Made by a program: the position numbers and the translations under genes
Notes under the pieces: model-generated
Database searches by the model: none
What the model saw: only the letters and a program-made list of their open reading frames with translations
Told to the model about the DNA's origin: nothing
Virus record (IMG/VR): IMGVR_UViG_3300030450_000692
Location: 1-21,899 of that record
Direction: 5' to 3' (one strand)
DNA length: 21,899 nt
Source of the DNA: a virus
Shown here: piece by piece, positions 1,296-17,700 of the stretch
Position numbering within the stretch: the stretch's first letter is position 1
Layout of the letters: each line of letters starts with the position of its first letter

Positions 1296-1325
1296 TGTCA
1301 AGGCCCGACACCTGAGAAATATAAA
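1296..1325 (+). promoter_or_regulatory. Candidate rightward promoter just downstream of the palindromes
   Basis: TGTCAA (1296-1301) is followed after 18 nt by TATAAA (1320-1325), giving a good -10 and a weak -35. It is the best-placed promoter for the gene at 1530 and would leave a leader of about 200 nt. The third palindrome ends 33 nt upstream of the -35, a suitable position for a regulator. Confidence 0.4.
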
Positions 1326-1405
1326 CAGGGGGATCGGTACTAGATAGATGCACAAGGGGGTACTAGTTTGGTGCGCAGGTGTCATCAGACGCTCGCTGTT
1401 TGCTT

Positions 1406-1509
1406 CGGCTTTCATGTGAAAGCCGTAACAGCCCAAAAACTGAATAAGCGAAAACCGCAGGCGCCTAGCGCCTTGCGTTAGGTCGCTTTCGGAACCGCTT
1501 GTTTGGTTC
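1406..1509 (+). promoter_or_regulatory. Structured 5' leader of the first rightward gene
   Basis: Three inverted repeats follow one another. CGGCTTTCA/TGAAAGCCG (1406-1414 with 1417-1425) is perfect with a 2-nt centre. CGCAGGCGC (1456-1464) pairs with GCGCC and TGCG (1468-1477) with one bulge. GAACC/GGTTC (1493-1497 with 1504-1508) lies about 10 nt before the ribosome binding site. No U-tract follows any of them. They could act as a translational control element or an RNA processing site, or the first could be a DNA-level operator. Confidence 0.4.
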
Positions 1510-1529
1510 TAATCATGGAGAGAGAAACC

Positions 1530-2252: not shown

Positions 2253-2265
2253 CCGCTACCGAATC

Positions 2266-2291
2266 GGGCCACCCTGCGGGGTGGCCCTTTT
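2266..2291 (+). terminator. Strong intrinsic terminator
   Basis: GGGCCACCC (2266-2274), a TGCG loop and GGGTGGCCC (2279-2287) are followed by TTTT. The 9-bp GC-rich stem with a tetraloop and U-tract lies just after the stop at 2252, so it ends transcription of the first rightward gene. Confidence 0.88.
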
Positions 2292-2315
2292 CGTTGTCCT
2301 ATTGCTATGCAATGG

Positions 2316-2345
2316 GCCACCTGGTCACGGGTGGCTTTTGTTTTT
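2316..2345 (+). terminator. Second, tandem intrinsic terminator
   Basis: GCCACC (2316-2321) pairs with GGTGGC (2330-2335) across an 8-nt loop and is followed by TTTTGTTTTT. It repeats the GCCACC/GGTGGC stem of the preceding terminator. The next gene begins only 21 nt later, so that gene needs either readthrough or a promoter within the terminator region. Confidence 0.8.
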
Positions 2346-2366
2346 ATCCACTAGGAGGTGGACGTT

Positions 2367-2594
2367 ATGGCGAGAAGAAAGACAGGAGTAACCAAGGAGA
2401 TGGTCGTCGCTCAGAGACATCTAGAGCTTGGGGACCATATCTATCAGAACAGGTTCGATCTCTTACAGGAGGAGTATCGGCCTAAGGCGGAGCGTTACAG
2501 GAAGCAGTATGTCCACGGGATCACGACGGAGATGGAGTTCGCTCTCGCTATATGTGATCTCTATTGTGAGCAGGAGGAGCAGGCTTATGGGTGA
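2367..2594 (+). CDS. Hypothetical 75-aa charged helical protein
   Basis: The ATG at 2367 follows AGGAGG (2353-2358) with 8-nt spacing; a GTG three codons earlier is inside the Shine-Dalgarno and is rejected. The product starts MARRKTG and is mostly charged and helical, with a basic N-terminus, a YRPKAERYRKQY stretch and an acidic C-terminus with one Cys (DLYCEQEEQ). It is the first gene after the tandem terminators. No family is recognised. Confidence 0.7.
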   Translation: MARRKTGVTKEMVVAQRHLELGDHIYQNRFDLLQEEYRPKAERYRKQYVHGITTEMEFALAICDLYCEQEEQAYG

Positions 2595-2802
2595 CCAGGA
2601 TCGTTTGTTCCCTGTTGAGGGGTGTCCTAGGTGTGGGACGGTGGACACGGGGCGCTTCTTCGGTGGGGCTGAGGTGTGTGTGGATTGTGTGCCCGTGTCT
2701 AGGGGGGAGGCGAGGGTTTGGTTGGCTAGGTGCCGTGCGTCCTTGCTTGGTGCCACCTTGGCTGATAAACTGGTGTCTAGTAGAGGGAGAGAGGAGAAGT
2801 AA
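2587..2802 (+). CDS. Small zinc-ribbon-like protein, 71 aa
   Basis: The start at 2587 overlaps the previous gene by 8 nt, with GGAGGAG upstream. Near the N-terminus there is a CPRC knuckle (about residues 12-15) and a second one, CVDC (about 32-35), spaced as in a zinc ribbon. The rest is a basic helical segment (ARVWLARCRASLL) ending in REEK. The metal site is inferred from the cysteine spacing. Such proteins may bind DNA or a host factor; the role is unknown. Confidence 0.7.
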   Translation: MGDQDRLFPVEGCPRCGTVDTGRFFGGAEVCVDCVPVSRGEARVWLARCRASLLGATLADKLVSSRGREEK

Positions 2803-2990
2803 TGGGTATCTTCCATGCAATACCGAAGGGTACGCCTCGCCTTGTGTACAGGGTGGGGGACCATGTGGAGGTGTGGATGGAGGCGCCGACGGGAGACTCG
2901 TCGGACTCGATCATCCTGAGGATTCCATGCACCAGCGTGGCTGAGGCTGATGATCTGGTGCGTGTGTGGGAGGAGGCGTGGAACCTATGA
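2802..2990 (+). CDS. Hypothetical 62-aa protein
   Basis: The ATG overlaps the previous TAA (TAATG), with GGAGAGAGGAG upstream. The protein reads like a small beta-rich fold (LVYRVGDHVEVWMEAP ... IILRIPCTSV) followed by a short acidic helix (ADDLVRVWEEAWNL). There are no catalytic motifs or membrane span. It is co-translated with its neighbours; the function is unknown. Confidence 0.65.
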   Translation: MGIFHAIPKGTPRLVYRVGDHVEVWMEAPTGDSSDSIILRIPCTSVAEADDLVRVWEEAWNL

Positions 2991-3121
2991 ACGAGTTGTC
3001 TGTTGAGGCGTTCTGGTTCATCATGTCGATTGGACTGGCAGGGTTCGCCCTGTTTGGTCTGTTCGAGGCACTGTTGGATTACATACAGAGGAGGAGAGGC
3101 AATGACGAAGAAGGATTATGA
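2987..3121 (+). CDS. 44-aa single-span membrane microprotein
   Basis: The ATG at 2987 overlaps the previous stop (ATGA), and the gene overlaps the next start by 20 nt. The product has one hydrophobic segment, about residues 9-30 (FWFIMSIGLAGFALFGLFEA), then a basic patch (QRRR) and a short acidic tail. The arrangement is typical of a small inner-membrane protein with a cytoplasmic basic end. It could be a superinfection-exclusion or host-takeover factor, but nothing in the sequence fixes its role. Confidence 0.6.
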   Translation: MNELSVEAFWFIMSIGLAGFALFGLFEALLDYIQRRRGNDEEGL

Positions 3122-3302
3122 GTTGATCGCTGAGGCGATCAAGGACGTGGGGGTGTTCTACCACCTCGACGGTGAACCGCTGCGTTCCGACGCTGAGGTG
3201 GTGCTGTTCAGCGTGGCGATGGAGTTGGCCCGTGAGTTGGGCGCCGCCAATCCACGCTTCGACAAGCAGCGGTTCATGGCTGCGTGTGGGGTGGCGGCAT
3301 GA
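3102..3302 (+). CDS. Small conserved-type phage protein, 66 aa
   Basis: The ATG at 3102 follows GAGGAGAGG. The sequence begins MTKKDYELIAEAIKD and ends with NPRFDKQRFMAACGV. This pattern (KDYELIAxAI at the start, NPxFDxxRFxxACG at the end) is a small helical protein that I recall from many tailed phages. No function is known to me. It shares 20 nt with the membrane microprotein upstream and 4 nt with the next gene. Confidence 0.75.
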   Translation: MTKKDYELIAEAIKDVGVFYHLDGEPLRSDAEVVLFSVAMELARELGAANPRFDKQRFMAACGVAA

Positions 3303-3693: not shown

Positions 3694-3918
3694 ATGAGCA
3701 ATCAGGAATGGCCGATAGGCCGACGCATCATTGAGGTGCGTCCACTCCACAAGTCGGAGATGGACGCCTGCGATTGGGAGGATTGGCAGGACGAGTGCGC
3801 TGTCTGCATCCTGTTGGATGACGGCTCCAAGTTGTGGCCGTCTGCCGATCCAGAGTTGAACACGTCTGGCTACATGCTGGGCTACCAGAAGGGAGAACTC
3901 TATGGCCTCTACCACTAG
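3694..3918 (+). CDS. Hypothetical 74-aa acidic protein
   Basis: The ATG follows GAGGAGAGAGAG, the strong form of the local ribosome binding site. The protein is acidic with several Trp (CDWEDWQDECAVC, about 26-38), a beta-like ILLDDGSKLWP stretch and a Tyr/Gly-rich C-terminus. Two Cys in DECAVC could bind a metal with the earlier Cys. The gene overlaps the next start by 17 nt. Confidence 0.68.
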   Translation: MSNQEWPIGRRIIEVRPLHKSEMDACDWEDWQDECAVCILLDDGSKLWPSADPELNTSGYMLGYQKGELYGLYH

Positions 3919-4780
3919 CGAGCAGGCTGTCCACATCGGCAAGGTGTGGGCACCCGTCCCACTCAAGCCGAGCGGTAACAGGAAGTTGTCACCGTGGATG
4001 CATCAGAAGAAGGCGGGCGGGCATGAGGCTGAGGTGGTGGTGAAGAACTCGTTCGGCACCCTCAGCTCTGAGTGCAAGTGGAAGACCCCGTTCTGCGAGG
4101 GGTGCTATGCGGGGGCAGCGGAGGTGTACCCGAACGTGCACGCCTTGTTGACGCACAACACCGACCTGACCAGGGGCAGGTCGTTCGATGAGTTGGTGCC
4201 CCTGTTTGATCGCCTCGTCCATGATGCTGAGGTCCAGATGGTGAAGCGTGGCGTGCCTGTATCGGACAGGTTCTACCGTCCGCATTGGGATGGTGAGTTG
4301 GATTCGTTCGAGGAGTTGCAGGCGTGGGATCAGGTGGCGAGGTACCACCCTGACATGCAGGTGTTTCTGTATACGAGGGGGCACATGCTGGTGCGTACCT
4401 TCATAGCGAACTGTGTGCCCGCACCCAATCTGGTGGTGTACCTGTCGGTGGACAGGCACAACGTGGACACGGCCCGTCAGGTGCAGCAGATAGATCCGAA
4501 GGGGTGGGTGAAGTACGCGTTCTGTGGTGACACATGGCAGGAGACGGAGGAGATCGCCGCCTTGTTCCCGAAGCAACGCAAGGGGCCACGCTGTCCCGAG
4601 TTGACGGGCAAGGTGCCTTTGATCGTGTGGGAGTCCGACGATGAGCGGGCTGCCCGTAGGTCTGATGCGATGGCGGCGGGCGTGAAGCGCCCGCCTGATC
4701 GTGTCGGAGTGGGGGCGTGTGTCGAGTGCGGCATGTGCCCGAAGGGAATCAACAACGTGCGCTTCGCACAAGAAAGATAG
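3902..4780 (+). CDS. GP88-like Cys-rich protein (radical-SAM-like?)
   Basis: The product is 292 aa. The N-terminal region has NRKLSPWM and then CKWKTPFCEGCYAG (C58, C65, C68), resembling the early cysteine cluster of the phage GP88 family. The middle contains RPHWDGELDS, then AWDQVARYHPDMQVFLYTR, equivalent to the RxHxxGDxxS and FxxYTR elements of that family. The C-terminus has CVECGMC (C273, C276, C279) and ends near NNVRF. The paired cysteine clusters suggest an iron-sulphur or zinc centre. GP88 proteins are common in actinobacteriophages and have no established function; a link to radical SAM enzymes has been suggested from the cysteines, which is not proof. GGGAG precedes the start. It is one of the two largest genes in this stretch and overlaps the preceding gene. 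Confidence 0.65.
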   Translation: MASTTSEQAVHIGKVWAPVPLKPSGNRKLSPWMHQKKAGGHEAEVVVKNSFGTLSSECKWKTPFCEGCYAGAAEVYPNVHALLTHNTDLTRGRSFDELVPLFDRLVHDAEVQMVKRGVPVSDRFYRPHWDGELDSFEELQAWDQVARYHPDMQVFLYTRGHMLVRTFIANCVPAPNLVVYLSVDRHNVDTARQVQQIDPKGWVKYAFCGDTWQETEEIAALFPKQRKGPRCPELTGKVPLIVWESDDERAARRSDAMAAGVKRPPDRVGVGACVECGMCPKGINNVRFAQER

Positions 4781-5447: not shown

Positions 5448-5912
5448 ATGGGTTACTACGTGAGGTTGGAGGACAGCACCGCTGTGCTCCCGAAGAAGCA
5501 CCAGGCGGAGGCATACCGCCGCATGTGTGCGCTGAATGACCACGACGAGCGCAAGCGTGGCGGCAGTTTCGGCCCAGACGGGGAGGAGAAGTGGTTCTCG
5601 TGGATGGACCCGAACTATCCCGATACGTGCGCTGATGCGAAAGCCATACTCGTGGACTTGGGGTTCTGGTTCAGCGACAAGCAGGTGGGTAGACGGCTGG
5701 CTGGAGCGTGCTTGTCGGAAGACTTGGTGTTTGAGGACTACGACTCCAAGTCGGGGCAGGAAGACTTGTTCATCTTCACCATCGCTGATCTGATGACGGG
5801 CTACATGGAGTGGTCTGGCGAGGACGGCGCCAGGTGGAGGTGGGAGTTCGGCCCCGACGGGGTGAAGGAACTCTTCCCGAAGCCAGTCGAGTGGGTGGAG
5901 GTGAAGGGGTAG
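5448..5912 (+). CDS. Conserved-type phage protein starting MGYYVRL, 154 aa
   Basis: The ATG at 5448 follows GGGAGAGAG. The sequence has the landmarks MGYYVRLEDS, KKHQAEAYRRMCALN, WFSWMDPNYPDTC, AKAILVDLGF, YDSKSGQEDLF and YMEWSGEDGARWRWEF. I recall the same order of motifs in hypothetical proteins of many actinobacteriophages and other tailed phages. The fold is likely a compact alpha/beta domain. No function is established to my knowledge. The stop codon overlaps the methyltransferase GTG start, so the two are co-translated. Confidence 0.75.
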   Translation: MGYYVRLEDSTAVLPKKHQAEAYRRMCALNDHDERKRGGSFGPDGEEKWFSWMDPNYPDTCADAKAILVDLGFWFSDKQVGRRLAGACLSEDLVFEDYDSKSGQEDLFIFTIADLMTGYMEWSGEDGARWRWEFGPDGVKELFPKPVEWVEVKG

Positions 5913-6859
5913 TGCGGGTAGGAGCCCTGTGTGCAGGGTACGGCGGCCTCGAACTAGGGCTGCAACTAGCAGGCATCGACACCGACCTGGTGTGGGTGTC
6001 GGAGACAGACAAGCATGCCTCTGCCGTGTTGGATGCACGGTTCGGGGTACCAAACTTGGGTGACCTGACCGAGATCACCGATCCACCACAGGTGGATGCG
6101 ATCACGGCGGGGTTCCCTTGTCAGCCCGTGTCCCATGCTGGGAGGCGGGCAGGTATAGATGATGAAAGGTGGTTGATCAGAGATGTCGTCTCTGTGGCAG
6201 AACGAGCAGGCGCACAATGGATCTTCTTGGAGAACGTGCGGGGTGTGCTCACCGCCAACCAAGGTGACGCCTTCGGGCAAGTCCTCGATGCGTTGGCCGA
6301 AGGAGGCTTCAATGCGGAATGGGCATGTATACGAGCCGACCAGTCAGTGGGCGCCTGCCATCGCAGGGAACGCTGGTTCTGTGTTGCCTACGCCAGTGGT
6401 GAACGACATGGGGGCGGGCAAGACGGTTTCCCAGTGGGATGCGTGGACGGCGGAGCAGAGGGAGAAGCATCGCAACGGCAACGGGCACGGCAAGAGCCTG
6501 TCGATAGAGGTGCAGCGCCTGTTGCCGACGCCGCAGGCGTGGGACCACAAGAGCTTCGGCCCGAACGTGGATTGGAAGAAGCGGGCGGAGAAGCACGCCG
6601 ACTCAGTTGCTTCGGTGCTTATGAACCTGCCGTCCGACGATGGGAGCAGCGGCTTGGACGGGTAGCGCCACCACCCACCGACGAGAAGGGCGTGTCCACC
6701 TGGTTCGTGGAATGGATGATGGGTCTGCCTAGTGGGTGGGTGTGCGACATGGGTCTGTCACGTACGCAGGAGTTGAAGATGTTGGGCAACGGTGTTGTCC
6801 CGCAACAGGCGGCAGCCGCATACGGGTGGCTGCTCAAACAGATAGGAGAGAAGACATGA
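5912..6859 (+). CDS. DNA (cytosine-5)-methyltransferase
   Basis: The product is 315 aa. It transfers a methyl group from S-adenosylmethionine to C5 of cytosine, probably protecting phage DNA from host restriction. The GTG at 5912 overlaps the previous TAG, with GGAGG at 5897-5901; an ATG at 5810 would add sequence out of place before the FxGxGG-like motif I. Visible motifs are AGYGGLELGL (8-17), PCQ with catalytic C70, ENV (107-109), RRERWF (151-156), FVEWMMGLP and the final LGNGVVPQQ (291-299). No restriction enzyme is adjacent, so it is an orphan. Oddly, residues about 162-232 (target-recognition region) have poor, A-ending codons and low-complexity composition, while another frame there looks like real protein. 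Two compensating frameshifts or a nested gene are both possible. The C-terminal motifs return to this frame near 6610. Confidence 0.9.
   Translation: MRVGALCAGYGGLELGLQLAGIDTDLVWVSETDKHASAVLDARFGVPNLGDLTEITDPPQVDAITAGFPCQPVSHAGRRAGIDDERWLIRDVVSVAERAGAQWIFLENVRGVLTANQGDAFGQVLDALAEGGFNAEWACIRADQSVGACHRRERWFCVAYASGERHGGGQDGFPVGCVDGGAEGEASQRQRARQEPVDRGAAPVADAAGVGPQELRPERGLEEAGGEARRLSCFGAYEPAVRRWEQRLGRVAPPPTDEKGVSTWFVEWMMGLPSGWVCDMGLSRTQELKMLGNGVVPQQAAAAYGWLLKQIGEKT
6312..6665 (+). CDS. Nested ORF inside the methyltransferase, LPTP-type
   Basis: A 117-aa frame lies entirely within the methyltransferase gene. GGAGG (6302-6306) is 5 nt before the ATG at 6312. It begins MRNGHVYEP and contains two LPTP motifs (6384-6395 and 6522-6533), then NGNGHGKSLSIE and WKKRAEKHADSV. 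These features match the variable LPTP-rich C-terminal region I recall from actinobacterial and phage methyltransferases. Its codons from 6380 to 6610 end mostly in G/C, as in neighbouring genes, unlike the main frame there. The frame stays open upstream to an ATG at 6183, where SSWRT and WP-x-MRNG landmarks also fit that family. It may be a real nested gene, the true central part of the enzyme reached by two frameshifts, or an ancestral frame preserved by chance. The Shine-Dalgarno also encodes Glu-Gly-Gly in the main frame, so it may be fortuitous. Confidence 0.45.
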   Translation: MRNGHVYEPTSQWAPAIAGNAGSVLPTPVVNDMGAGKTVSQWDAWTAEQREKHRNGNGHGKSLSIEVQRLLPTPQAWDHKSFGPNVDWKKRAEKHADSVASVLMNLPSDDGSSGLDG

Positions 6860-7335: not shown

Positions 7336-7567
7336 TGAAGAAGACGGGGAGATGTCAGCGGAAGCGTTCTACTCCACCGTCATACCGTCAGCGTGGATCG
7401 GGTTACTTGACCTGTGCCACGACATGATGATGCGCCTTGGGGACTTCCTTGAAGCACAAGGCCAGATGGTGGAAGAAGCCAAGGCGCACATGCGCCACCC
7501 ATCTACCCAAGAGGAAGCGGAAATCATTCCGTTCCCAACCGACAATGAAGGAGAGCAAAGTGAGTAA
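7328..7567 (+). CDS. Hypothetical 79-aa acidic helical protein
   Basis: The ATG at 7328 sits inside the end of the previous gene, with GGAGGTGACAGAAG upstream. The protein has a hydrophobic-aromatic helix (AWIGLLDLCHDMMMRLGDFL) and a Gln/Glu-rich second helix, then a short EIIPFP tail. It is very acidic. No known domain is evident. The stop lies within the first codons of the next gene. Confidence 0.62.
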   Translation: MSDEEDGEMSAEAFYSTVIPSAWIGLLDLCHDMMMRLGDFLEAQGQMVEEAKAHMRHPSTQEEAEIIPFPTDNEGEQSE

Positions 7568-7955
7568 CGAAATCATTCCCGCCAACTCCACCCCCCAAGG
7601 GGTGGACAGGCAGCGAGGGTACAAGACGGACAGGACGAGGGCGTTGTGGCGTCTCGCCCAAGGTGCAGCCAAGCAGCCAGGTGAAGCCCTCGTTTCAACG
7701 GCGGTCGTCTGCGACGACCGTCGAGACGCCGTGGTCATGGCGTCCCGCATACGCCTTGGGCGTGTCGGAACGATCAACAATGCGTTGGCGGATGTCAACG
7801 CAACGGGGAGGCTGGAGGCGTGGGCGGAGGAACACCACTTCGGGCACACCATTGGTGTGAGGTTCCTGCCGAAGCATCCGCCAGGGCGCCTCAACGCACC
7901 GTATGAGGTGCCGACCCGTCCCACCTTGCAGGCGCGAGAAGCGGCCAACCAGTAG
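7560..7955 (+). CDS. Hypothetical 131-aa basic protein
   Basis: I chose the GTG at 7560 (GGAGAG 4 nt upstream), giving a start inside the previous stop region; an ATG five codons earlier covers the ribosome binding site. The sequence contains RALWRLAQGAAKQPGEALV, a VVCDDRRDAVVMASRIRLG segment and a GRLEAWAEEHH helix, and ends in a Pro/Arg-rich tail. It is alpha-rich and positively charged, which could fit nucleic-acid binding. It is the last gene before the gap at 7956-8068. I do not recognise a family. Confidence 0.62.
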   Translation: MSNEIIPANSTPQGVDRQRGYKTDRTRALWRLAQGAAKQPGEALVSTAVVCDDRRDAVVMASRIRLGRVGTINNALADVNATGRLEAWAEEHHFGHTIGVRFLPKHPPGRLNAPYEVPTRPTLQAREAANQ

Positions 7956-7984
7956 CTATCCACCAGCCTGTCACCAGCTTGCGT

Positions 7985-8047
7985 TATACTGGCTGCTAGC
8001 AGGCAAGCAGGCCAGCGGCCCACCCCTTAGGGGGTGGGCCTGCTAGC
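7985..8047 (+). promoter_or_regulatory. Candidate promoter plus switchable hairpin before the replication genes
   Basis: A TATACT box (7985-7990) has no good -35. Downstream, GGCCCACCCC (8017-8026), a TTAG loop and GGGGTGGGCC (8031-8040) form a perfect 10-bp stem. GCTAGCAGG (7995-8003) can instead pair with CCTGCTAGC (8039-8047), and the two stems share positions 8039-8040. No U-tract follows, so the hairpin is either a weak or Rho-assisted terminator for the upstream operon or a leader switch for the gene at 8069. Confidence 0.45.
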
Positions 8048-8068
8048 CCTAGCCCACAGGAGAGAGAG

Positions 8069-8911
8069 ATGAACGAAGAGCATTACTTCGATGCTGAAGA
8101 CGAACGCTGGCATCATACGTGGCATCAGTCTGACCTGAAGACGTTGGACATGTGCCCTGAACGGGCGCGTCTGATGTGGACGGGCGCTGTGGACGATCCC
8201 GAAGGGGACGCTTCGGTGCTGGGTACGGCATGCCATAACGCTGTCGAGTACCTCATCACCATCCCTGAGGGGATGGATGCTGCGCCCGTCTGGATCAACG
8301 ATGAGACTTATACTGCCCTCCATGAGCGGTTCGGTCACGAGTTGGACGAACTCGTTCCAACGATTGACAAGTGGAACAGTTACAAGTCTCGTACCGATCT
8401 TGAGCAGGTTGGTGCAGCCAAGTTGGACTCTTGGTACGAGCAGGTGTACCCGAGCCTGACCCCTGTCGGGGTGGAGGTGGGGTTCGACCAGGTGCTGTTC
8501 GAGGACGACGAGCGTGTCGTTCGGATGACGGGACGAATCGACCTGATAGATAGCAACTTGGGTTTGGTTGATTGGAAGTTCCCGAAGCGTGACTACACGA
8601 GGAACAAGTGGGAGTACGACAGGTGGGACATCCAGTCCACTACGTACTGTTGGGCAACGGGCCGCAACACGATGACGTTTTACTGCATGTACGGCACGAA
8701 GGGTGAGGTGTCGTCCATGAGGATTGAACGAGGCGAGCAGGACTTCCAGTTCCTGCGACGCAAGGTCGAGGCGGCGAGCCGCCTCGTGGAACAGTCAAGC
8801 CTGAAGGTTTGGCCGTTGAATGATGCAGGCTGGTGGTGCTCCGAGAAGTGGGCGCCATGCTGGTCTGTTTGCAAAGGGAACACAGCAGCATCGGAGGATG
8901 CAAATGGATAA
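8069..8911 (+). CDS. Cas4/RecB-like PD-(D/E)XK exonuclease
   Basis: The product is 280 aa, with a start after GGAGAGAGAG. It opens with a SDLKTLDMCPE helix (C29), then GTACHNAVE (H56), GRIDLI (D158), LVDWK (D168, K170) and a downstream Q189-containing helix: the His, Asp, Asp/Glu-x-Lys and QxxxY order of RecB-family nucleases. Three further cysteines (C257, C264, C268, in CSEKWAPCWSVC) with C29 can hold an iron-sulphur cluster, as in Cas4 and AddB. Such phage enzymes resect DNA ends for recombination and are not evidence of CRISPR. It heads the replication module, co-transcribed with the next genes, and its stop overlaps the next start. Confidence 0.85.
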   Translation: MNEEHYFDAEDERWHHTWHQSDLKTLDMCPERARLMWTGAVDDPEGDASVLGTACHNAVEYLITIPEGMDAAPVWINDETYTALHERFGHELDELVPTIDKWNSYKSRTDLEQVGAAKLDSWYEQVYPSLTPVGVEVGFDQVLFEDDERVVRMTGRIDLIDSNLGLVDWKFPKRDYTRNKWEYDRWDIQSTTYCWATGRNTMTFYCMYGTKGEVSSMRIERGEQDFQFLRRKVEAASRLVEQSSLKVWPLNDAGWWCSEKWAPCWSVCKGNTAASEDANG

Positions 8912-9497
8912 GGACAAGCTGATAGTCGCGCAGAACTGTAACTCTGCGACGGCACAGGTAATGGCAGCCCTAGTGGCGTCGGGTTCGTTCTCGTATGAGG
9001 ACGTGCGCGCCAACTGGGCTGATTTGCACGGCATTGTGAACGCGAACACGTTTACTGCCGTAGCCACACAGACGGTCGCTGCGGCCATACCAGGGGTGCA
9101 GGCTACACCCACCCCACCCCCACCCCCCGCAGCCCCTCAGGCGGCTCCTACGCCGCCCTCACCGCCTTCTGCGGCACCATCCCGCCCCAAGTCCAACTGG
9201 ATCAGGGAGGATGCGTTCGACAGCATCGTTGGTGCCGTCGAATACGAGCGCCTCAGCGGCATCACGTTCGGCTCCAAGGAGTCGAACTTCTACTGCAACC
9301 AGAGCGTCAAGGCGTCAGGTCAACTGCCGAACGGCACCCCCATCAGGAACGTGGCAACGTACCCTGACGCCAAGGTCAAGCCCGCTGATCGCCTTGAAGG
9401 CGATTGGGGTCCAACCCTGGCCGAATACGCCGACTTCGCCATCGACTTCGGTAAACTCCCGTCATCGTTCACGCGGCCTCCCGCCTACGTGAGGTGA
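8904..9497 (+). CDS. Two-domain protein with a Pro-rich linker, function unknown
   Basis: The product is 197 aa; GGAGG (8893-8897) lies 6 nt before the ATG at 8904. The N-terminal domain (1-65) is helical (NCNSATAQVMAALVASG, YEDVRANWADLHGIV). A proline/alanine linker (about 70-100, TPPPPPAAPQAAPTPPSPP) leads to a C-terminal domain (about 100-197) with AVEYERLSGITFG, CNQSVKASGQLPNG and DWGPTLAEYADFAIDFG. The low-complexity linker and its place between nuclease and helicase suggest a replication or recombination accessory protein, such as a single-strand-binding or annealing factor. No OB-fold motif is certain, so this is conjecture. Confidence 0.7.
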   Translation: MDKDKLIVAQNCNSATAQVMAALVASGSFSYEDVRANWADLHGIVNANTFTAVATQTVAAAIPGVQATPTPPPPPAAPQAAPTPPSPPSAAPSRPKSNWIREDAFDSIVGAVEYERLSGITFGSKESNFYCNQSVKASGQLPNGTPIRNVATYPDAKVKPADRLEGDWGPTLAEYADFAIDFGKLPSSFTRPPAYVR

Positions 9498-9498
9498 C

Positions 9499-10536
9499 AT
9501 GACTACGCGGCTGACCCTCGATGAGGCTCAGGCGCGGGTGCAGCAGGCGCGGGTTGGGGATTCTGGACCTCTCTCCCCAGATGAACCAGCCCGCCCTGTT
9601 GCCGTCCCTAGCCTGCCTACCTGCCTTGACATAGCGGAGCGTCTCATTGAAGACGCAACCGACATGTCCAACAAGTGGCCCCTTGGGGTTCACGACATAG
9701 ACGACGCCCTTGGTGGCGGCTTGAAGAAACGCGAATGCATGATCGTTTCTGGGAAAGCCCACACAGGGAAGACGGTGTTGATCATCAACGCTGTGGCCCG
9801 CAACCCGAACAACATCGTCATGTGGATGACACCTGACGAACCCGACCTGATGGTGCTGTCCCGCATCCTGAGCATCAGGTTGAACAAGAACCCCCGTGAG
9901 GTATACGACCTGGCGAAGCGTGGCGACGAACAGATCTTGACTGCGATCCGTCACCAGTCGGAAACGGATCTGCGGAACCTGCGGATCATCGACCGTGCCG
10001 CTTTCTCCAAGTACGGCGAAGCGATGCGACGGTCAGGCCACCAGGTGGACGGACCCATCGACATAGCGGACCACATGTTGGGCACATGGTCCGAAGCATC
10101 ATACGGACGCAAAGCCGACGTGTTCATCTGGGACTTCGCATCCCAACTAGACGACCCCCAGTTGGGTGATGACCCTGCCCGCATCTCAGCGTTGAAGTCG
10201 TTGGGTATGCGTCACGATACTGTCACCATCATCGTGCATCAGGCGTCACGCAGTTCGGCGTCCCGTGGCGCAGCATTGGGCATCGAGTCGGGCCGTTACG
10301 GCGGTGAGGATCTAGCCCACTTCATGTTGACGGTGTGGCGTCCACATGAAGACGAAAGCCTGCCCGCCGATGAGCGTGCCCGTTTGGAAAACGTGTTCGG
10401 TATAGCATTGGTGAAGAACAAGAGGTTCGACGGCAAGAAGGTCACCATCAACATGGAGATCACCGACGCGGGCAAGCTGTTGGACCCGTGGGAAGAGACG
10501 GTCATCCAGCACCGCCTCGACCAAGGAGAGTTCTGA
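9499..10536 (+). CDS. DnaB-like replicative helicase / RecA-fold ATPase
   Basis: The product is 345 aa and starts 1 nt after the previous stop, behind GAGGTGAC. The RecA-type core begins at PLGVHDIDDALGGGLKKRE. Walker A is SGKAHTGKT (84-92), a TPDEP motif (111-115) sits where DnaB has its catalytic Glu, and Walker B is VFIWDF (208-213). IVHQASR follows like the sensor region. The DnaB primase-binding N-terminal domain is absent; only about 55 divergent residues precede the core. It would unwind DNA at the phage fork and is near a separate primase gene. A RecA-like recombinase is the alternative, but the GGGL..RE entry favours DnaB/KaiC-type ATPases. Confidence 0.83.
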   Translation: MTTRLTLDEAQARVQQARVGDSGPLSPDEPARPVAVPSLPTCLDIAERLIEDATDMSNKWPLGVHDIDDALGGGLKKRECMIVSGKAHTGKTVLIINAVARNPNNIVMWMTPDEPDLMVLSRILSIRLNKNPREVYDLAKRGDEQILTAIRHQSETDLRNLRIIDRAAFSKYGEAMRRSGHQVDGPIDIADHMLGTWSEASYGRKADVFIWDFASQLDDPQLGDDPARISALKSLGMRHDTVTIIVHQASRSSASRGAALGIESGRYGGEDLAHFMLTVWRPHEDESLPADERARLENVFGIALVKNKRFDGKKVTINMEITDAGKLLDPWEETVIQHRLDQGEF

Positions 10537-10703
10537 TGGGTGTCACCGTCGAAAAGCAAACCATCTACCTGGGTGCAGGGTTGACGCGTACAGGATGGGT
10601 GGTGTGGGACGACGACGTGTCCGTCGGATGGCACGCCGACTATGTGGCAGCCCAACTCAACGCCGCCACCTTGGTGGAACAGAGAGAACATCGTGACGGG
10701 TAG
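10536..10703 (+). CDS. Hypothetical 55-aa protein between helicase and primase
   Basis: The ATG overlaps the helicase TGA (TGATG), with AAGGAGAG upstream. The product has MGVTVEKQTIYLGAGLTRTGWVV-type beta strands, then a DDDVSVGWHADYVAAQL helix and a basic end. It overlaps the primase GTG by 11 nt. It may bridge helicase and primase, but only gene order hints at this. Confidence 0.55.
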   Translation: MGVTVEKQTIYLGAGLTRTGWVVWDDDVSVGWHADYVAAQLNAATLVEQREHRDG

Positions 10704-11760
10704 CGACCTGTCGTCTTGGTTCCACACGACGTTCCACGGGTTCCCCCACGCGTGGGGCGAATCAGGCGACAACCCCATCACAATCTGGGAAGACCTGACG
10801 CTCGCCCACTTTCGCCGTCACCTCGACGGGAAGGCACCATTGGGGATCTACCCGATGGTGTACGACCCCACCAACAAGCACGTAGGCCCACGAGGGTGGG
10901 GCGAGAACCGAAGGTACCCCGACATGCAACCCGAACTATGGGTGTGCAGTTGGGGGTGCATCGACATTGACGCCCAGTCCGACCACCACAAGGGGCAAGG
11001 CACCGAAGACGAGGTAGCCGACTATGCGTTCAGCCTCAGCACCGTGCTGGCTGCACAAAACATCCCATCGTGGGTGGAACGCACCCGCTCAGGCGGCGCC
11101 CACGTATGGGTGTTCCCCGACACATGGTGCTCCACCGCAGACATGCGACGGTGCCTACAGGCAACAGAACAGATCGCAGGGGTACCAACCGACTCGCCGT
11201 TCCCCAAGAGCGAATCGCTACCAGGGCCACCAGGGAACTTCGTGAGGCTCCCGTACTACGGGGACCGACCCCACCAAGACAGGCAGGTCATCATCAAGGA
11301 AGACGGCACGCCCATACCGTTGGAAAACTTTCTGCACGACGCCAACGCGAACCGCGCCAAGATCGCTGACATCAAGGCGGCGGCGTTGCTGAAGGCAACA
11401 CCGCAGCGCATCGAACGGCGCCCACTTTCACATGAAAGCAGAGACGCCCCCACAGAAATGAAACCCAACCTCAAAGAAATGTTTGAGCACGGGCCACCCC
11501 AATCGGTGTTCGTGGAGAACCAAGGGGCAGGCAAAGGCAGGCACGGGTGGCTGTATAAGTTCGCGGCGTTCGCATGCCGTGACGGCCACCCTGTCGGCAT
11601 GGTGGTACCGTGGCTGCTGGACCTGGACAACAGGTTCACCCGCAAGTTCTACAACAACGGGAAACCCCAACACGACCAGTTGTACCAGTTGCAGAAACTG
11701 GCAGAGAAAGCCTTCCAAGATGCCGAAACGCACACGCCTAGAGCACGCCTTTATCGTTGA
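10693..11760 (+). CDS. Archaeo-eukaryotic-type primase (PrimPol-like)
   Basis: The product is 355 aa. I chose the GTG at 10693, which has AGAGAGA upstream and overlaps the preceding stop; an ATG at 10642 would require 62 nt of overlap with unlike sequence. The core reads WGCIDIDAQ (D91, D93) and later RTRSGGAHVWVFPD (about 131-143), the DxD and sGGxHxW motifs of archaeo-eukaryotic primases, then SLPGPPGNFVRLPYYGDR. About 150 residues follow as an alpha-rich C-terminal part, with YKFAAFACRDGHPVGMV. It should make primers for the fork and works with the DnaB-like helicase two genes upstream. The 3' end overlaps the RusA-like gene by 41 nt. Confidence 0.8.
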   Translation: MTGSDLSSWFHTTFHGFPHAWGESGDNPITIWEDLTLAHFRRHLDGKAPLGIYPMVYDPTNKHVGPRGWGENRRYPDMQPELWVCSWGCIDIDAQSDHHKGQGTEDEVADYAFSLSTVLAAQNIPSWVERTRSGGAHVWVFPDTWCSTADMRRCLQATEQIAGVPTDSPFPKSESLPGPPGNFVRLPYYGDRPHQDRQVIIKEDGTPIPLENFLHDANANRAKIADIKAAALLKATPQRIERRPLSHESRDAPTEMKPNLKEMFEHGPPQSVFVENQGAGKGRHGWLYKFAAFACRDGHPVGMVVPWLLDLDNRFTRKFYNNGKPQHDQLYQLQKLAEKAFQDAETHTPRARLYR

Positions 11761-12070
11761 GGGGCGTCCCAAACCGAAGGGGCGCCCCCGCATGACACGC
11801 CGTGGCCGTGTCTACACGCCAAAGGAGACGTTGGAGTACGAAGCCAAGATCGGTGAAGCGTATGACGGCCCCATGTTCGAAGGGCCGATCCTTATGAGGA
11901 TCGCATACACCCCCGACTATCAGACCATTGAGATCGAAGAGATGCCTGACGCCACGTCGAAACTACGGTTCGATCTAGACAACGCAGTCAAGGCCACGTT
12001 GGATGGGTTGAACGGCATCGCGTACCCCGACGACAAACTCGTGTACCACATCGAGGCAACAAAGCTGTGA
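11720..12070 (+). CDS. RusA-like Holliday junction resolvase
   Basis: The product is 116 aa, close to the RusA family length (~120). Landmarks are EGRPKPKGRPRMT (14-26), RVYTPKETLEYE (30-41) and FDLDNAVKATLDGLNG (84-99) with D85, D87, N88 and K91, then AYPDDKLVYHIEATK with D104 and D105. The DxDN..K..lDaLnG..y.DD..v signature is diagnostic of RusA resolvases, which cut four-way junctions symmetrically. It would resolve branched phage DNA before packaging. The start at 11720 lies inside the primase gene; no strong Shine-Dalgarno is visible, so coupling is likely. Confidence 0.88.
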   Translation: MPKRTRLEHAFIVEGRPKPKGRPRMTRRGRVYTPKETLEYEAKIGEAYDGPMFEGPILMRIAYTPDYQTIEIEEMPDATSKLRFDLDNAVKATLDGLNGIAYPDDKLVYHIEATKL

Positions 12071-12513
12071 GCAGCACCCAGTTTTCCGAACAAGAGTTTG
12101 GGAAACGACTCGACGGGATGGGCGACCTAGCCGAAGGCGTCTTTGAAGAATGGTGCGGCGTCAACTATGTCAGGTTCGGGCTGAACCGTCCCCCCATCGC
12201 CATGTGGAAGTTGCCGCTGCGGATTAGGCACACACCAGACTATTTGACATCCGACTATCTGGTCGAGGTGCAAGGCTTCGGACGCAAGCAAGTCGTCCAC
12301 ATGAAGTTGGACAAGTGGAAGTCGCTGCTGTGGTGGGACCGCAACGTCATGCCCGTCCGCCTGTTCCTCCACGACTCGCACAATGATCGGCAACTCATGT
12401 TCCCGATCAAGAAGCTGCGCCCCCTCGTGGACAAGGCAGAGGTCCGCAAGTTTCCCGAAGGCAACGAGTATTATGCGATCAACGCAGGGGAGGTATGGTC
12501 GCTCTTAGGATAG
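12067..12513 (+). CDS. PD-(D/E)XK-like nuclease, small phage type
   Basis: The product is 148 aa; GTG overlaps the RusA stop (GTGA). Early residues FGKRLDGMGDLAEGVFEEW carry E23; RHTPDYL supplies D58, and YLVEVQGFG supplies E67 and Q69 where a canonical enzyme has Lys. A basic-aromatic segment (HMKLDKWKSLLWW) and a strand VMPVRLFLHDS follow, as in core folds of this superfamily. Similar small proteins with tPDyl..EvqG occur in actinophages. The Gln in place of Lys, or a migrated Lys (K80 or K83), would need testing. It probably nicks or cuts phage or host DNA. Confidence 0.6.
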   Translation: MSSTQFSEQEFGKRLDGMGDLAEGVFEEWCGVNYVRFGLNRPPIAMWKLPLRIRHTPDYLTSDYLVEVQGFGRKQVVHMKLDKWKSLLWWDRNVMPVRLFLHDSHNDRQLMFPIKKLRPLVDKAEVRKFPEGNEYYAINAGEVWSLLG

Positions 12514-12516
12514 TGA

Positions 12517-12930
12517 ATGTCGAAAGTAGTAAGCGTGGACCCGACAGGTTGGATCCTTGACAGCACCCTAGAGGACTATTACCGAAGCGTGCTTCCCCTC
12601 GGGGATTCAGCAAGGCCGCTCACTGAACTCCAAGCGTTGATGGAAGCCCCGCCTGGGCACGACGTTCACCCCCACGCCGCCCCGTGGAACACAGACAGCG
12701 AAGAACTCAGCGCACTCGTCAAGCAGGCGTTGAGAGAACTACCAGAGATTCACCAAACGGTGATCGAGGCGCTATGGGGTGGCGGCCTGTCGCTTCGGGA
12801 AGTCGAACACTTCACAGGCGTGCCGAAGACAACGGTGGCCCGCAAACGAGACGAAGTACCTGAACTCCTCGGGAAAATCTTGAAGCGTCTAGTGCCCGAC
12901 ATTGCGGACAGGTACTACATCGAAGACTAG
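12517..12930 (+). CDS. Sigma-70 region 4-like HTH protein
   Basis: The product is 137 aa, starting 3 nt after the previous stop. The C-terminal half (about 62-115) reads ELSALVKQALRELPEIHQTVIEALW, then GGLSLREVEHFTGVPKTTVARKRDE, a sigma region 4-type helix-turn-helix with a preceding helix pair. Region 2 is missing, so it is not a full sigma factor. The N-terminal 60 residues are acidic and look like a separate binding segment. As the last gene of the rightward operon it is well placed to be a late-transcription activator. Its stop overlaps the stop of the opposing gene. Confidence 0.72.
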   Translation: MSKVVSVDPTGWILDSTLEDYYRSVLPLGDSARPLTELQALMEAPPGHDVHPHAAPWNTDSEELSALVKQALRELPEIHQTVIEALWGGGLSLREVEHFTGVPKTTVARKRDEVPELLGKILKRLVPDIADRYYIED

Positions 12931-13232
12931 ATCTCAGGGTCGGGGCGGGCGTCCAACGCCCGCAACGTCATGTCCTGAATCATCCTGCCGAAAAACTCCT
13001 TGAACACAGGATGCACGATGAACCCGTGCTGGGCGCGCCAATCCTCAGACACCAAGCCCTCAGCCTCCTCCTCGGTCATCACAACCAGGATGCCCAGCCT
13101 GTCTCCGCACCAGCCCGCATGGGTGCCGTCCTCAATGTCGAACAGGTTCGCTTCACGAAGCATGTTGTCATGCACCGTTGACGTGATGTCATCGCCGTGT
13201 GCGGCGAGAAACGTCTCCCATTCGTCGCCCAT
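12927..13232 (-). CDS. Hypothetical 101-aa protein, last gene of the late operon
   Basis: The ATG at 13232 overlaps the stop of the holin-like gene (TGATG). The product (MGDEWETFLAAHGDDITS ...) has a beta-like core DRLGILVVMTEEEAEGLV and EDWRAQHGFIVHPVFKEFF, and an acidic composition. No membrane span, so it is not itself a holin. Its TAG stop overlaps the opposing sigma-like gene by 2 nt at 12928-12929. No family is recognised. Confidence 0.68.
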   Translation of the reverse strand: MGDEWETFLAAHGDDITSTVHDNMLREANLFDIEDGTHAGWCGDRLGILVVMTEEEAEGLVSEDWRAQHGFIVHPVFKEFFGRMIQDMTLRALDARPDPEI

Positions 13233-13426
13233 CAGGCAGCGCGCTTGTCGAGCACTTCCTTCGCCCAAGCCTTGACAGCCGCCAAGGCCGCTGCGACGGC
13301 TGCGACAACAGCCGTCTTCACGGTGGACACGTCCGTCAAAACCAGGACGCTGAGGCCCGCCTGCACCGCAGTAGCGACGAGCCGCTCAATCTTGTCGGAC
13401 CAACTACCTGAACTTAAAGCAGTCAT
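13232..13426 (-). CDS. Holin-like small membrane protein, 64 aa
   Basis: The ATG at 13426 follows GAAGGGGAAGAA and overlaps the upstream stop (ATGA). The sequence starts MTALSSGSWSDKIERLVAT; a hydrophobic stretch AVQAGLSVLVL and an alanine/valine-rich stretch TAVVAAVAAALAAVKAW follow, ending in a charged WAKEVLDKRAA. This two-segment pattern resembles r1t-type holins of Gram-positive phages, which form membrane holes for the endolysin. The gene lies in the same operon as the endolysin, separated by four short frames. A structural membrane protein is a less likely alternative. Confidence 0.6.
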   Translation of the reverse strand: MTALSSGSWSDKIERLVATAVQAGLSVLVLTDVSTVKTAVVAAVAAALAAVKAWAKEVLDKRAA

Positions 13427-13560
13427 TTCTTCCCCTTCTTAGATCGCTTGGCGTGATCATGGGCGATAGCGACCGCCTGATCGCGCGGGTACCCCTCGTT
13501 GATGAGGCGCCCAATGTTCGTGTTGATGGCGTTCTGAGAAGCGCCGCGCACCAGAGGCAT
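13423..13560 (-). CDS. Small conserved-type phage protein starting MPLV, 45 aa
   Basis: The product begins MPLVRGASQNAINTNIGRLI, continues NEGYPRDQAVAIAHDHA and ends in a lysine-rich KRSKKGKK tail. This short protein type (MPL-K/R-G-S, NI..l...G.p..QAvAIA, basic end) is found in many tailed phages near structural or lysis genes. I know no established function. The stop overlaps the holin-like start (ATGA). Confidence 0.72.
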   Translation of the reverse strand: MPLVRGASQNAINTNIGRLINEGYPRDQAVAIAHDHAKRSKKGKK

Positions 13561-13936: not shown

Positions 13937-14710
13937 CTACATAAAGAACAAGGCGTCCCATGTCGCCTTGTTCACTTCACCGTTCGGCTTCAAAAAGCCC
14001 CGCTGCCGTTGAAACAACCGCACAGCAGCCTTCGTACGCCATCCGAAGATGCCGTCCGCAGGACCAGGGTCGCACTTCCAACGAGGCAACGTCGCCTGCA
14101 CCATACGGATCTTGTCGCCACGCATCCTGCGCTTCAACGGGTTGGCATCCAACCCGTCGCCCAGCGACCTCAAATAGGCGACCACGCCGTCCCAATCGAC
14201 ATGCGGGACATGCGCGCCAGGAGGCGCCTCGTGCGCTGCACCTGACATCACCCAGTCATACAGCCATCCACCAGGGCAGCTCGTGGAAGCCAAATCCTGA
14301 TGCCCCTTGATCCACAGCCCACCACCATACTTATGTTGCAACTCGTCGATGACGGTGCGGAAGCCCTGCTGGGCTTCCAAACTCAACGGCTGATTACCGT
14401 CCCCAATGTACGAGACGGCCACCGTGCGGAAGTTCCAGTTCTTCGTCGCACCACCCACGGCGCCGTTGCGGCGCCCCTCGTAGATGGTGCCGTCCACGTC
14501 CACCAGCCAGTTGTATGCGATGGACGACCAGCGTCGCACCTGCATGTGGTGACGCTCGAAGGCTTGCACAGCGGTGGCCCCCGTGGGGCCACCTACCACG
14601 CCGCTGTGGTGAATGACGATGCCTTGGACACGTTTCGGGTTCAGCCACGTCCAACCTTTGGTGGGTGCGGTGGCGCCCCAGTCTGCACGCCTGACGTAAG
14701 CAGCCCTCAC
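13937..14710 (-). CDS. Endolysin: amidase plus peptidoglycan-binding domain
   Basis: The product is 257 aa. The GTG at 14710 overlaps the preceding gene's stop (GTGA). The N-terminal domain (about 8-160) is an N-acetylmuramoyl-L-alanine amidase of the amidase_2/PGRP fold: RRADWGA, IVIHHSG (H34), YNWLVDVDGTIYEGR, WIKGHQDL (H137) and TSCPGG (C145), where H34, H137 and C145 are the zinc ligands. The C-terminal part (about 190-257) is a PG_binding_1-type module (KIRMVQATL, DGIFGWRTKAAVRLFQRQRG, NKATWDAL). It cuts the bond between muramic acid and the stem peptide. There is no signal peptide, so release needs a holin; a holin-like gene is about 500 nt downstream. No spanin was seen, fitting a Gram-positive host. 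Confidence 0.93.
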   Translation of the reverse strand: MRAAYVRRADWGATAPTKGWTWLNPKRVQGIVIHHSGVVGGPTGATAVQAFERHHMQVRRWSSIAYNWLVDVDGTIYEGRRNGAVGGATKNWNFRTVAVSYIGDGNQPLSLEAQQGFRTVIDELQHKYGGGLWIKGHQDLASTSCPGGWLYDWVMSGAAHEAPPGAHVPHVDWDGVVAYLRSLGDGLDANPLKRRMRGDKIRMVQATLPRWKCDPGPADGIFGWRTKAAVRLFQRQRGFLKPNGEVNKATWDALFFM

Positions 14711-17700
14711 CTAATCCGCTCCAACGACCGTATCTCCGACCTAGACATCGACCGCTCCCGATCACGCTGCATCCGCGCACCCCGCGTATCCCGTGGCCCC
14801 TGCCTACGGATGCCAATGGGCATCGCCCAACTCAACCACGCTGAAAACAGTTTGTCGTCATCCTTGTAACGATCCTCACGAGGAATCAGACGCCTCGCCT
14901 GAGACAGGTACGGCACGAACGTGCCCAATCCGTACAGGACATTCTCACGTATCCCGTACTTGCCTCGACTGTTCCTCGCCACCATGTCACCAGGCATCTT
15001 AGACAAGAACGGCAACAACCCTGGGATGTTGAACATCGGAGGAGGCTTCACATACTCCGTTGAGATCGGAATGTTCCTGAATATCTGGGCGCCCATCACC
15101 GTCTCAACAGGGAACTTGATCTGAGGGGCCAACCCCTCAGCGAGACGGGTCAAGCCGCCGAAGGGGCGCTCCATGTCTTGGAGCGGCATGTCGGCAAACT
15201 CGATGAGATCCATGAACGGCAGGTCAGGGAACGCCCAAGTGCGGGCACCCTGGTTCGGGTTGCCCATCAGGCCCGACAGGTCGATACCCCACCGCTTCCC
15301 GTACCACGCTGGCGTCGTACGATCTTCCTGCACCCCCAGTTCGATGTTGTTCTTCAACTGGAGGTATCTGACGAACGGCTTCGGGTTATACAGCAACTGT
15401 GTCGCCATCAAAGGCAACGAGTTCCGTGTCCACGTATAGAACGGGTACGCCCTGGCGCCAAGGTTGCGTTCCCAGTCGGTCATCCCTTCCTTCGAGTAGT
15501 TGAAGTGGAACTGGTTGACGCGGAAGATCACTTCAGCGTCGCTCATGCCGTTGAAGATGCTGTCCAACGCCAACGATCCGCGAACCCATTCCTCCATCTC
15601 AGAGTTGCCGTTACGAACCGCCGTGTTCCACACGTTGTCTCGACGCAACGGATTCCACCTGAGGGGACGCCCGTACCTGTCAACGGTCGTGGCACCATGC
15701 AGTCGGAACGACTGCGCCACCTCGGAAGCAGCCTGACCCGCACCGATGGCGCCCGAACGGTACACCCTGCGAAGATCACGCATCGCCCCGTCGCCCTGAG
15801 CGGCCAACTTTTCTGCCCCCAGTTCGGCGGCTCGCCGCTTCAACGCTGCGGGACGTGACCGCATAAACTGGTATCCGCCGCCCTCGTTGCGGACTTGCTC
15901 GGGGGTCAACCCGATTTCCTTCAACGCGTCCTCCCACCCCGCCTTGATGGCACGGCCACGCAACGCGATAAACCGTGCGGCATTCTCCAAGTCCATGCCT
16001 GCCAACATGTTGTTGAACAAGGCGCCGAACCCGTTGCGCTGAACAAACGCGGGGCGCGCCACCGCCTGAGCCTTGAAGTAGCCAGTGACCGAATCCCAGG
16101 CTTGAAGCAGCTCACCAATCTCGCCACGCCCAGCGTTCATACGTGAACGCAGCAAATCCCCCAACTGTTTATTGAGTTCAGGATCACCCAGCGTGCCCCT
16201 CATATAGGCGGGGCCGAACGGCAAAGCCGCATCGTCAAGACCCGCCCTCAACGCTTCCGCTACGTTGGTTTCAAACCCTGGCTCAAACTCCCCACCAGGC
16301 GTCATCCTTCTCGGTCGTGTCCCCGTCGGATCAAGCAACCGACCGAACATGTTGTCAGCGTCTTGGAAGACACCCAAGTCCGTTTCAAGAATCTCACCCA
16401 ACTCGTCAGGCATGCGATGGAAGTTCGCTTCCATCGCGTTCCGTTGCGCGTCAAGATCCAACGCCTCGGCAGCGAACCTGTTGTAATTGTTCTTCACAGG
16501 GTCGTTCACATACGTTCCCATGTGGCGTTGCGCCCTGTTGCTGAGATCAACGGTCTGCTTGTCGAACTCCTCCTGCACCCACAGGAGGGTTCGACGCCTC
16601 GCCTCCACCTCTAACAGCGGTATACGTTCGGCGCCCCGCTCAAACGTGTCAGCGATGTCCTCCAGCGCATCCGTAGCGTCAGGTTGCAGTTTCCGCCCTG
16701 GCCCCAGCGTCCGCTTTTCTTCTTGAACAAGGCGTCGGACTTCTTTCTCTTGCGCTTCTGCTGCGGCTTGCCTGGCCTTCACCGCCCAAGGACGGTTCGC
16801 TATGTCCGCTTGGGACACAGGGATCCTGTACCCGCTGTTGAACGTGATCGGCGCCTCCAGCTCGGCAGCCAACCTGCCGACCTCATGCACCTGATCGACG
16901 TAATCCCGTATGGCGCGGGGAGTTCCCTCCGAAACGAACCCCTTCTCCAACCCGCTGATCAAAGACTCCAAGTCCCTGATCGTCTGGTCCTGCCCGCCCA
17001 AACGGGCGGCAGCGTTCTTCGCCACCTCCAACGTGTCACGGGCAATCGCCAACTGCTGCGTGATGTGGGAATAAGCCTCCTCCACGGCTCGCATGTTGCG
17101 GCCCAGATCGTCCACGCCACCCAAGGTTTCGCTGATCGACCTCAAAGCCCTAGCCATACGGCCCGTCACTTCCAAACCGACAGCCATGTCGAGCAGATCT
17201 TCCATCGCCGTTTGTGCCTCAGGGGCGGTACGGAACCGCCCCGTTCGAGAAGCACGAACCGTGGAAGCGTTCACGTCTTCGATCAGATCCATCATTGACA
17301 TTTGGATCTTCCTGATCTGCGGATCCAACCCCCACATGTCTTCCGCAGCCTTCACCCTGGCCGCATCAGCCGCCGTAGCCTGCTGGTTGTAATCGTGTGC
17401 TGTGGATGCTGCTCGGCGCGCTGAGTCGTACTTCTTCTTAGCCGCTTCACCCATGTTCTTTTGGGCTTTGCGGGCCTTCGATGACGCTTTCGCCAAGTCG
17501 TTGAAGAAAGCCTTCACCTCGTCCAAGGTGGCGGCTTCAACGAAGATCCCCTGCGCTGCCAGATGGTCCTCCATCCCAGCCCAAATCAGTTCACGGCCTT
17601 GAGCCGACTTGTACCCGTCGATCAGTTTCGCAACATCCGTCTCAAAGAACGTGTTGTTCGCAGCCCACTCGGGGTCCACCTCGCGGACAAACATTTCGAT

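Follow-up and report, generated by a model that had tools for sequence, protein, structure and literature searches.

Phages that carry a helicase or primase of their own and no DNA polymerase are an already known kind, and small phages such as SPP1 and lambda rely on the replicase or polymerase of their host. The plasmid RSF1010 features a RecA-type ring helicase, RepA, and an archaeo-eukaryotic primase (AEP), RepB′, with extension by host polymerase III. For the phages NrS-1 and S-2L, no polymerase-like enzyme other than an AEP is reported: the PrimPol of NrS-1 is described as the only DNA polymerase of its genome (PMC7102993), and the PrimPol of S-2L is termed the sole possible polymerase (PMC8065100). 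The system described here is the replication module at positions 8069–12930 of the IMG/VR virus record IMGVR_UViG_3300030450_000692, a tailed-phage record of 21,899 bases that was analyzed at its full length (hereafter the window) and has no exact terminal repeat. The module encodes a RecA-like helicase motor of 345 residues and an AEP primase of 355 residues in separate genes, together with nucleases and predicted resolvases. A preliminary description of the sequence had reported that no polymerase is seen, and this holds for the window: neither family A nor two family B models nor PolC alpha gives a match. The window alone cannot settle the polymerase question, and relatives are, hence, needed. 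With the relatives included, we favor—at a probability of about 0.62—a phage lineage without a DNA polymerase gene of its own, which has its own helicase and primase and leaves extension to the host replicase.

A scan with the primase yields six close relatives among viral contigs, with primases of 81 to 94% identity. The contig G004 (36,765 bp) matches the window DNA end to end at ∼78 to 98% identity, positions 1314–3298 being mostly unmatched, and extends it by ∼5 kb at one end and by 9.3 kb at the opposite end. The added parts carry terminase, portal, scaffold, capsid, adaptor, stabilization, and tail genes. Both ends of G004 fall in tail genes, as judged by comparison with MW202803, and we infer that little sequence, comprising tail genes only, is missing between them. 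According to its database entry, MW202803 (Caudoviricetes sp.; Podoviridae sp. isolate ct52p938, Manatee Spring) is a complete and circular podovirus genome. It has 42,055 bp and is identified here as a circular reference genome for the group. It features the module of the window with its gene order kept—exonuclease, then DnaB-like helicase, AEP primase, RusA, and the Hjc-like protein, helicase and primase being separate genes—and a P22/SU10-like portal; a DNA polymerase is neither annotated nor found. It differs from the window as follows: the primase is 34% identical and keeps a Glu at motif III; further genes, RNA ligase and AAA_5 ATPase among them, are present; and nothing matches the 225-residue open reading frame (ORF) or the sigma-like protein described below. 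A wider scan based on the primase alignment adds at least seven further window-type loci, along with G014 (37,759 bp) and G015 (42,541 bp), two distant relatives that share the module; this locus set is a lower bound, and further relatives exist. In a search for a host or prophage, the same alignment was run against a collection in which each of 84,980 species is represented by a single genome; it finds 29 loci, the best with an E of 7e-18 and 27% identity and none with a segment above 39%, none of them close to the window clade and none pointing to a host.

The terminase–portal–scaffold–capsid–adaptor block is carried by G004, G014, G015, and MW202803 alike and, hence, accounts for the part of the genome beyond the window. 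A polymerase in this missing part, one of the explanations offered initially, is contradicted by the relatives: none is found in G004 or the three further large genomes, and head and tail genes are found in the added parts of G004. The AEP is the only recognizable polymerase-like enzyme in MW202803 and in three relatives of 36.8 to 42.5 kb and, by way of G004, presumably also in the phage from which the window stems.

The profile search for polymerases that the preliminary description had proposed was run on the whole records of the relatives, circular MW202803 included, and found no polymerase. It covers 17 records with a short type of primase: the window, the six close contigs, seven further window-type contigs, G014, G015, and MW202803. 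Family A polymerase (PF00476), DNA_pol_B_2, and PolC alpha are each found in 0/17 records, DNA_pol_B in 0/8. The 17 records span 4.2 to 42.5 kb, with only four of at least 36 kb, and the small fragments add little to these counts. Among control genomes, family A and PolC alpha rise above the cut-off in 10 each, DNA_pol_B in five, and DNA_pol_B_2 in 0/14. In addition, long ORFs were scanned against Pfam at an E of 0.01 or 0.001, with a minimum of 130 residues for G004 and MW202803 and of 180 residues for G014 and G015. No DNA polymerase occurs among the 22 families of G004 (91 ORFs), the 18 families of G014 and G015 (80 ORFs together), or the 25 of 32 families listed for MW202803 (103 ORFs). 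DnaB_C, AEP-TOTE, and PDDEXK_1 are found in all three sets, which indicates that the scans work. A single-stranded DNA-binding protein (SSB) family is likewise not among the families listed for the long ORFs of these four genomes, although a 197-residue protein of the module could conceivably be one.

Phages with an AEP-TOTE primase fall into two groups: one with a short primase of ∼290 to 390 residues and a DnaB-like helicase, and one with a long primase of ∼500 to 600 residues. The long type was searched in 33 records drawn from the 80 other loci of the wider scan, namely 23 of 70 viral contigs and all 10 GenBank phages; the 47 loci left out are mostly shorter contigs but also include L076 (14.9 kb). 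Primase lengths are available for all 33 records, from a set of 23 with L092, which is cut by the locus end at 438 residues, and a set of 10 with L094, which runs off its contig. Family A polymerase is present in 30 of the 33 records at an E of 4.5e-45 or better, the ten GenBank phages all included, and the best frames have 622 to 794 residues. The three records without it are truncated contigs: one runs off its contig within the primase, and the others have 840 and 2,519 bases left beyond it. The search is, hence, able to detect a polymerase beside this kind of primase. A DNA polymerase is annotated within a few kilobases of the primase in six of the 10 GenBank regions, usually with one or two helicase genes, and lies outside the stretch viewed in the remaining four. 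Long-type phages such as HTVC023P, DSL-LC04, and Klebsiella phage K21lambda1 share a related AEP-TOTE primase with the window but differ from it by UvrD/SF2-type helicases, the longer primase, a Glu at motif III, the family A polymerase, and the lack of any relative of the window helicase. Such a relative is found in 16 of 16 short-type relatives and, within the flanks examined, in none of the 80 other loci; RusA occurs in 16 of 16 and the 148-residue Hjc-like protein in 13 of 16 short-type relatives. A study on virioplankton describes polymerase A groups that go with SF2 and UvrD-like helicases (PMC6302109), an arrangement that looks like the long-type group.

In a tree of the AEP core, 17 short-type and 23 long-type sequences fall on opposite sides of a branch with 100/99 support; the tree is midpoint-rooted only, long branches meet at the split, and its “noPol” labels on small fragments assume the result of the large relatives. 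The association of primase type with polymerase is, hence, one evolutionary split and not many independent ones. Related primases with a polymerase in one phage group and without it in the other—the type of helicase differing at the same split—amount to a natural experiment. The primases of both groups could show whether a phage primase replaces the replicative polymerase or hands primers to the host replicase.

The AEP primase (10693–11760, plus strand, GTG start) is of the TOTE/CAPP type and matches PF22548 (AEP-TOTE) at an E of 3.1e-12 to 3.8e-12, with 46.7 bits against a curated cut-off of 27. Its AlphaFold2 (AF2) model has a predicted local distance difference test (pLDDT) score of 83, mostly above 90 in the AEP core, and features this core at residues ∼3–237 followed by a helical C-terminal part. 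By their sequence pattern, the C-terminal helices look like a PriCT domain; the Pfam family PriCT_1 is matched in 9 of 29 aligned primases, the protein of the window not being among them. The closest solved structure by far is the CAPP Prim-Pol domain 7nqf_B, with a Z of 23.9 and a root-mean-square deviation (rmsd) of 3.1 over 209 aligned residues at 22% identity in VIA-align, where the next family follows at a Z of 11.7. CAPP is again the top match in Foldseek with the primase model (E 3.4e-11) and by PDB sequence profile (E 6.9e-12). The LigD and Prim-PolC repair polymerases show the same fold at a Z of ∼10 to 12. The match to the other systems named at the outset is weaker: the two structures compared for the NrS-1/S-2L type of PrimPol, 6zp9 and 6jon, give a Z of 8.1 and a Z of 6.0 at an rmsd of 10.7, respectively, and RepB′ of RSF1010, compared by fold only, gives a Z of 7.8 (3h25) and of 8.2 at an rmsd of 15.7 (3h20). 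NrS-1 also has a separate helicase. In NrS-1 and S-2L, the AEP is described as joined to a helicase-like C-terminal region within a larger protein, unlike the separate 355-residue protein of the window.

The three catalytic motifs of AEPs are defined as hhhDhD/E (I), sxH (II), and hD/E (III) in PMC10345425. Motif I of the window primase is D91-I-D93 and motif II is H137; the DxD and His residues are present in 40 of 40 aligned sequences and are shared, like the core fold, with CAPP from Marinitoga (PDB 7NQD/7NQF). CAPP differs from the window primase by being CRISPR-associated and by its motif III Glu—residue 260 by our own count on the alignment—which in the window is Ser168. All 14 sequences of the window clade feature this Ser and an Asp one residue before it, Asp167 in the window, whereas the motif III Glu is present in 23 of 23 long-type and three distant short-type sequences. 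In the same review, CAPP Glu260 is given a part in holding the initiating nucleotide in place, and mutation of the motif I/III triad is said to abolish activity (PMC10345425). In RepE/RepS primases, the motif III acid is described as replaced, with another acid preceding it at variable spacing (PMC5862659). The ratio of nonsynonymous to synonymous substitution rates (dN/dS) of the primase is 0.17 to 0.24 in four comparisons, which indicates purifying selection, and the primase is, hence, presumably active. A role in TOTE or CRISPR defense was set aside: PADLOC on seven module proteins returns two PrimPol models and a weak Cas4 match and no further CRISPR partner, in a search whose models did not include a TOTE-specific partner.

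The helicase motor (9499–10536, plus strand) is of the DnaB/KaiC type and matches phrog_19 at an E of 2.7e-13. This match starts at residue 47 of the helicase and at position 316 of the profile, and a full DnaB N-terminal domain seems, from the sequence, to be absent. Some ring helicases occur without a DnaB N-terminal domain. In Pfam, the motor stays under the cut-off (KaiC 3.2e-4; DnaB_C 0.0053), and its PDB profile favors KaiC at 2.8e-13 versus replicative DNA helicase at 1.1e-4, mostly around the Walker A motif. DnaB_C matches in G014 and G015 reach an E of 9e-12. Gly85, Gly90-Lys91-Thr92, and a C-terminal KNKR are invariant in 12 aligned sequences, the latter of which we take to be a DnaB motif. 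In 16 of 16 relatives, the helicase homologue is followed downstream by the primase, adjoining or nearly so in the window clade and with four annotated genes in between in MW202803. In the window, a small ORF of ∼55 residues (10536–10703, plus strand; ORF table and sequence) lies between the two genes. At the same junction (10536–10540), ∼250 to 275 extra bases are present in L002, L003/G003, G004, L005, and G006 and none in L001.

In the favored reading, the phage helicase would unwind the phage DNA and the AEP primase would lay primers, which the host DNA polymerase III holoenzyme would extend with the host clamp and SSB. The exonuclease, RusA, and Hjc-like protein would serve in recombination and would resolve branched DNA ahead of packaging. 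The lack of a polymerase beside a ring-helicase motor fits the habit of small phages such as SPP1 and lambda of using the host replicase. Less usual is that a DnaB/KaiC-type motor is combined with a CAPP/TOTE-type AEP encoded by a separate gene, as is the clean split from polymerase A-bearing relatives; a search limited to one open-access library gave no paper recognizable as a description of this module. Several points weigh against the reading. Use of the host replicase is only inferred, and the lineage is known from metagenomes only; the DNA_pol_B_2 negative is weaker than the other polymerase negatives because its model stays below the cut-off in all control genomes; and the primase has a prim-pol as its closest structural neighbor, as is the sole polymerase reported for NrS-1 and S-2L in the texts cited above. 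Since CAPP enzymes also polymerize DNA in vitro, a host enzyme may not be required.

This last point leads to the alternative that the 355-residue AEP both primes and extends and, with the separate ring helicase, copies a genome of ∼40 kb without any classical polymerase. Such a replisome is unlikely, although it deserves serious weight: the nearest structure and the PDB profile both point to CAPP, extension of DNA primers in vitro is reported for two CAPP enzymes (PMC8211822), NrS-1 and S-2L provide reported precedents, and motifs I and II are intact throughout the 40 sequences. The shifted motif III of the window clade weakens it somewhat, and the same kind of primase stands beside a family A polymerase in nearly all long-type records, where it is presumably a primer-maker only. 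In addition, the enzymes of NrS-1 and S-2L have large extra C-terminal regions, and NrS-1 has its own SSB (PMC7102993), whereas no SSB family is listed for the four large genomes. It is rather doubtful that a short AEP with a repositioned third catalytic acid is the replicative polymerase of a podovirus lineage of ∼40 kb, working with a DnaB/KaiC-type ring helicase and forming the sister of the widespread polymerase A-partnered group.

The AEP could also act mainly in recombination or repair—by gap filling or end processing—with host primase and host replicase copying the genome. An operon rich in a PD-(D/E)XK exonuclease, RusA, and an Hjc-like fold is in line with this, as is the fold shared with LigD and Prim-PolC; however, the constant position of the primase downstream of the helicase and the PriCT_1 domain of related proteins, which is typical of primases, make it improbable. 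That a polymerase is present and either too divergent for the profiles or of a known family outside those searched is highly improbable. Several ORFs are without assignment; families D, X, Y, and reverse transcriptase were outside the whole-genome profiles; and the Pfam scans had the ORF length limits and the listing of 25 of 32 MW202803 families given above. The PF00476 search is, however, positive in 30 of 33 contrast records at an E of 4.5e-45 or better, the Pfam scans include polymerase models of all families, and the longest rightward ORF of the window without Pfam or PHROG assignment (1503–2252) has only 249 residues.

The remaining genes of the module bear out the content initially given for 8069–12930—helicase, archaeo-eukaryotic primase, nucleases, and resolvase—by Pfam and PHROG matches and predicted fold. 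The module begins with a PD-(D/E)XK exonuclease (PDDEXK_1, Cas4/RecB-like; 8069–8911, plus strand), which matches PF12705 at an E of 5.6e-14 and the exonuclease family phrog_1218 at 1.4e-13. Between exonuclease and helicase lies the 197-residue protein with a proline-rich linker (8904–9497, plus strand; the mechanical ORF starts at 8820 and has 225 residues). Its best family is phrog_14234, of unknown function, at an E of 0.0011, which gives no usable family; it is present in all eight relatives aligned with it, and no counterpart is matched in MW202803, L028, or L030. Downstream of the primase follows a RusA-type Holliday junction resolvase (11744–12070, plus strand), with PF05866 at an E of 2.1e-17 and phrog_140 at 3.3e-21. 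The next gene (12067–12513, plus strand) encodes the 148-residue protein, for which no Pfam or PHROG match at an E of 1 and no PDB sequence match better than an E of 0.23 is obtained. Its AF2 model (pLDDT 85.9) features a PD-(D/E)XK nuclease fold of Hjc/RecU type: the 12 best rows in VIA-align are Holliday junction resolvases (Hjc type, RecU/PrfA), led by the archaeal Hjc 2wcw with a Z of 10.2 and an rmsd of 2.6 over 107 aligned residues. Thr56-Pro57-Asp58, Glu67, and Lys80 are invariant in 12 aligned sequences. The module, thus, holds two predicted resolvases side by side, RusA and an Hjc-like one, whose folds we take to be unrelated. The last rightward gene (12517–12930, plus strand) encodes a sigma-70 region 4-like DNA-binding protein, with PF04545 at an E of 0.0019, below the Pfam cut-off, and the transcriptional regulator family phrog_36 at 0.0033. 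Across 19 gene comparisons of the window with four relatives, dN/dS is 0.03 to 0.24, indicating purifying selection.

The rightward run of genes ends inside the window at 12930, as initially described, but starts at ∼1503 and is, hence, longer than the 8069–12930 given for the operon; it abuts a leftward ORF ending at 12927, as judged by the ORF table. Promoter-like and terminator-like sites in 7400–13500 are not above shuffled sequences (1 versus 1.4 and 5 versus 5.2, respectively), and none lies on the plus strand. The run also carries a GP88-family protein at 3902–4780 (PF17338, E 3.8e-22) and a C-5 cytosine DNA methylase at 5810–6859 (PF00145, E 1.7e-37). When GC skew is cumulated along the window, its maximum falls at ∼8000–9000, at the start of the replication module; this peak need not mark an origin, gene direction switching a few kilobases further on. 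Outside the window, a frame change separates the two halves of the large terminase in L016 at ∼10528–12100 (G004 27528–29100) and at the end of L018 (G006), with ∼130 extra bases at the split in G004; a frameshift, a gene in two parts, or faulty assembly could each explain it. On the leftward side of the window, the ORF at 13937–14710 is taken as a putative amidase because the G004 scan contains Amidase_2 and PG_binding_1, with the ORF unnamed, and the G004 relative is 90% identical. The stretch 14707–19764 is a single leftward ORF of 1,685 residues, whose counterpart in MW202803 is annotated “chromosome segregation” and whose product is probably a virion protein.

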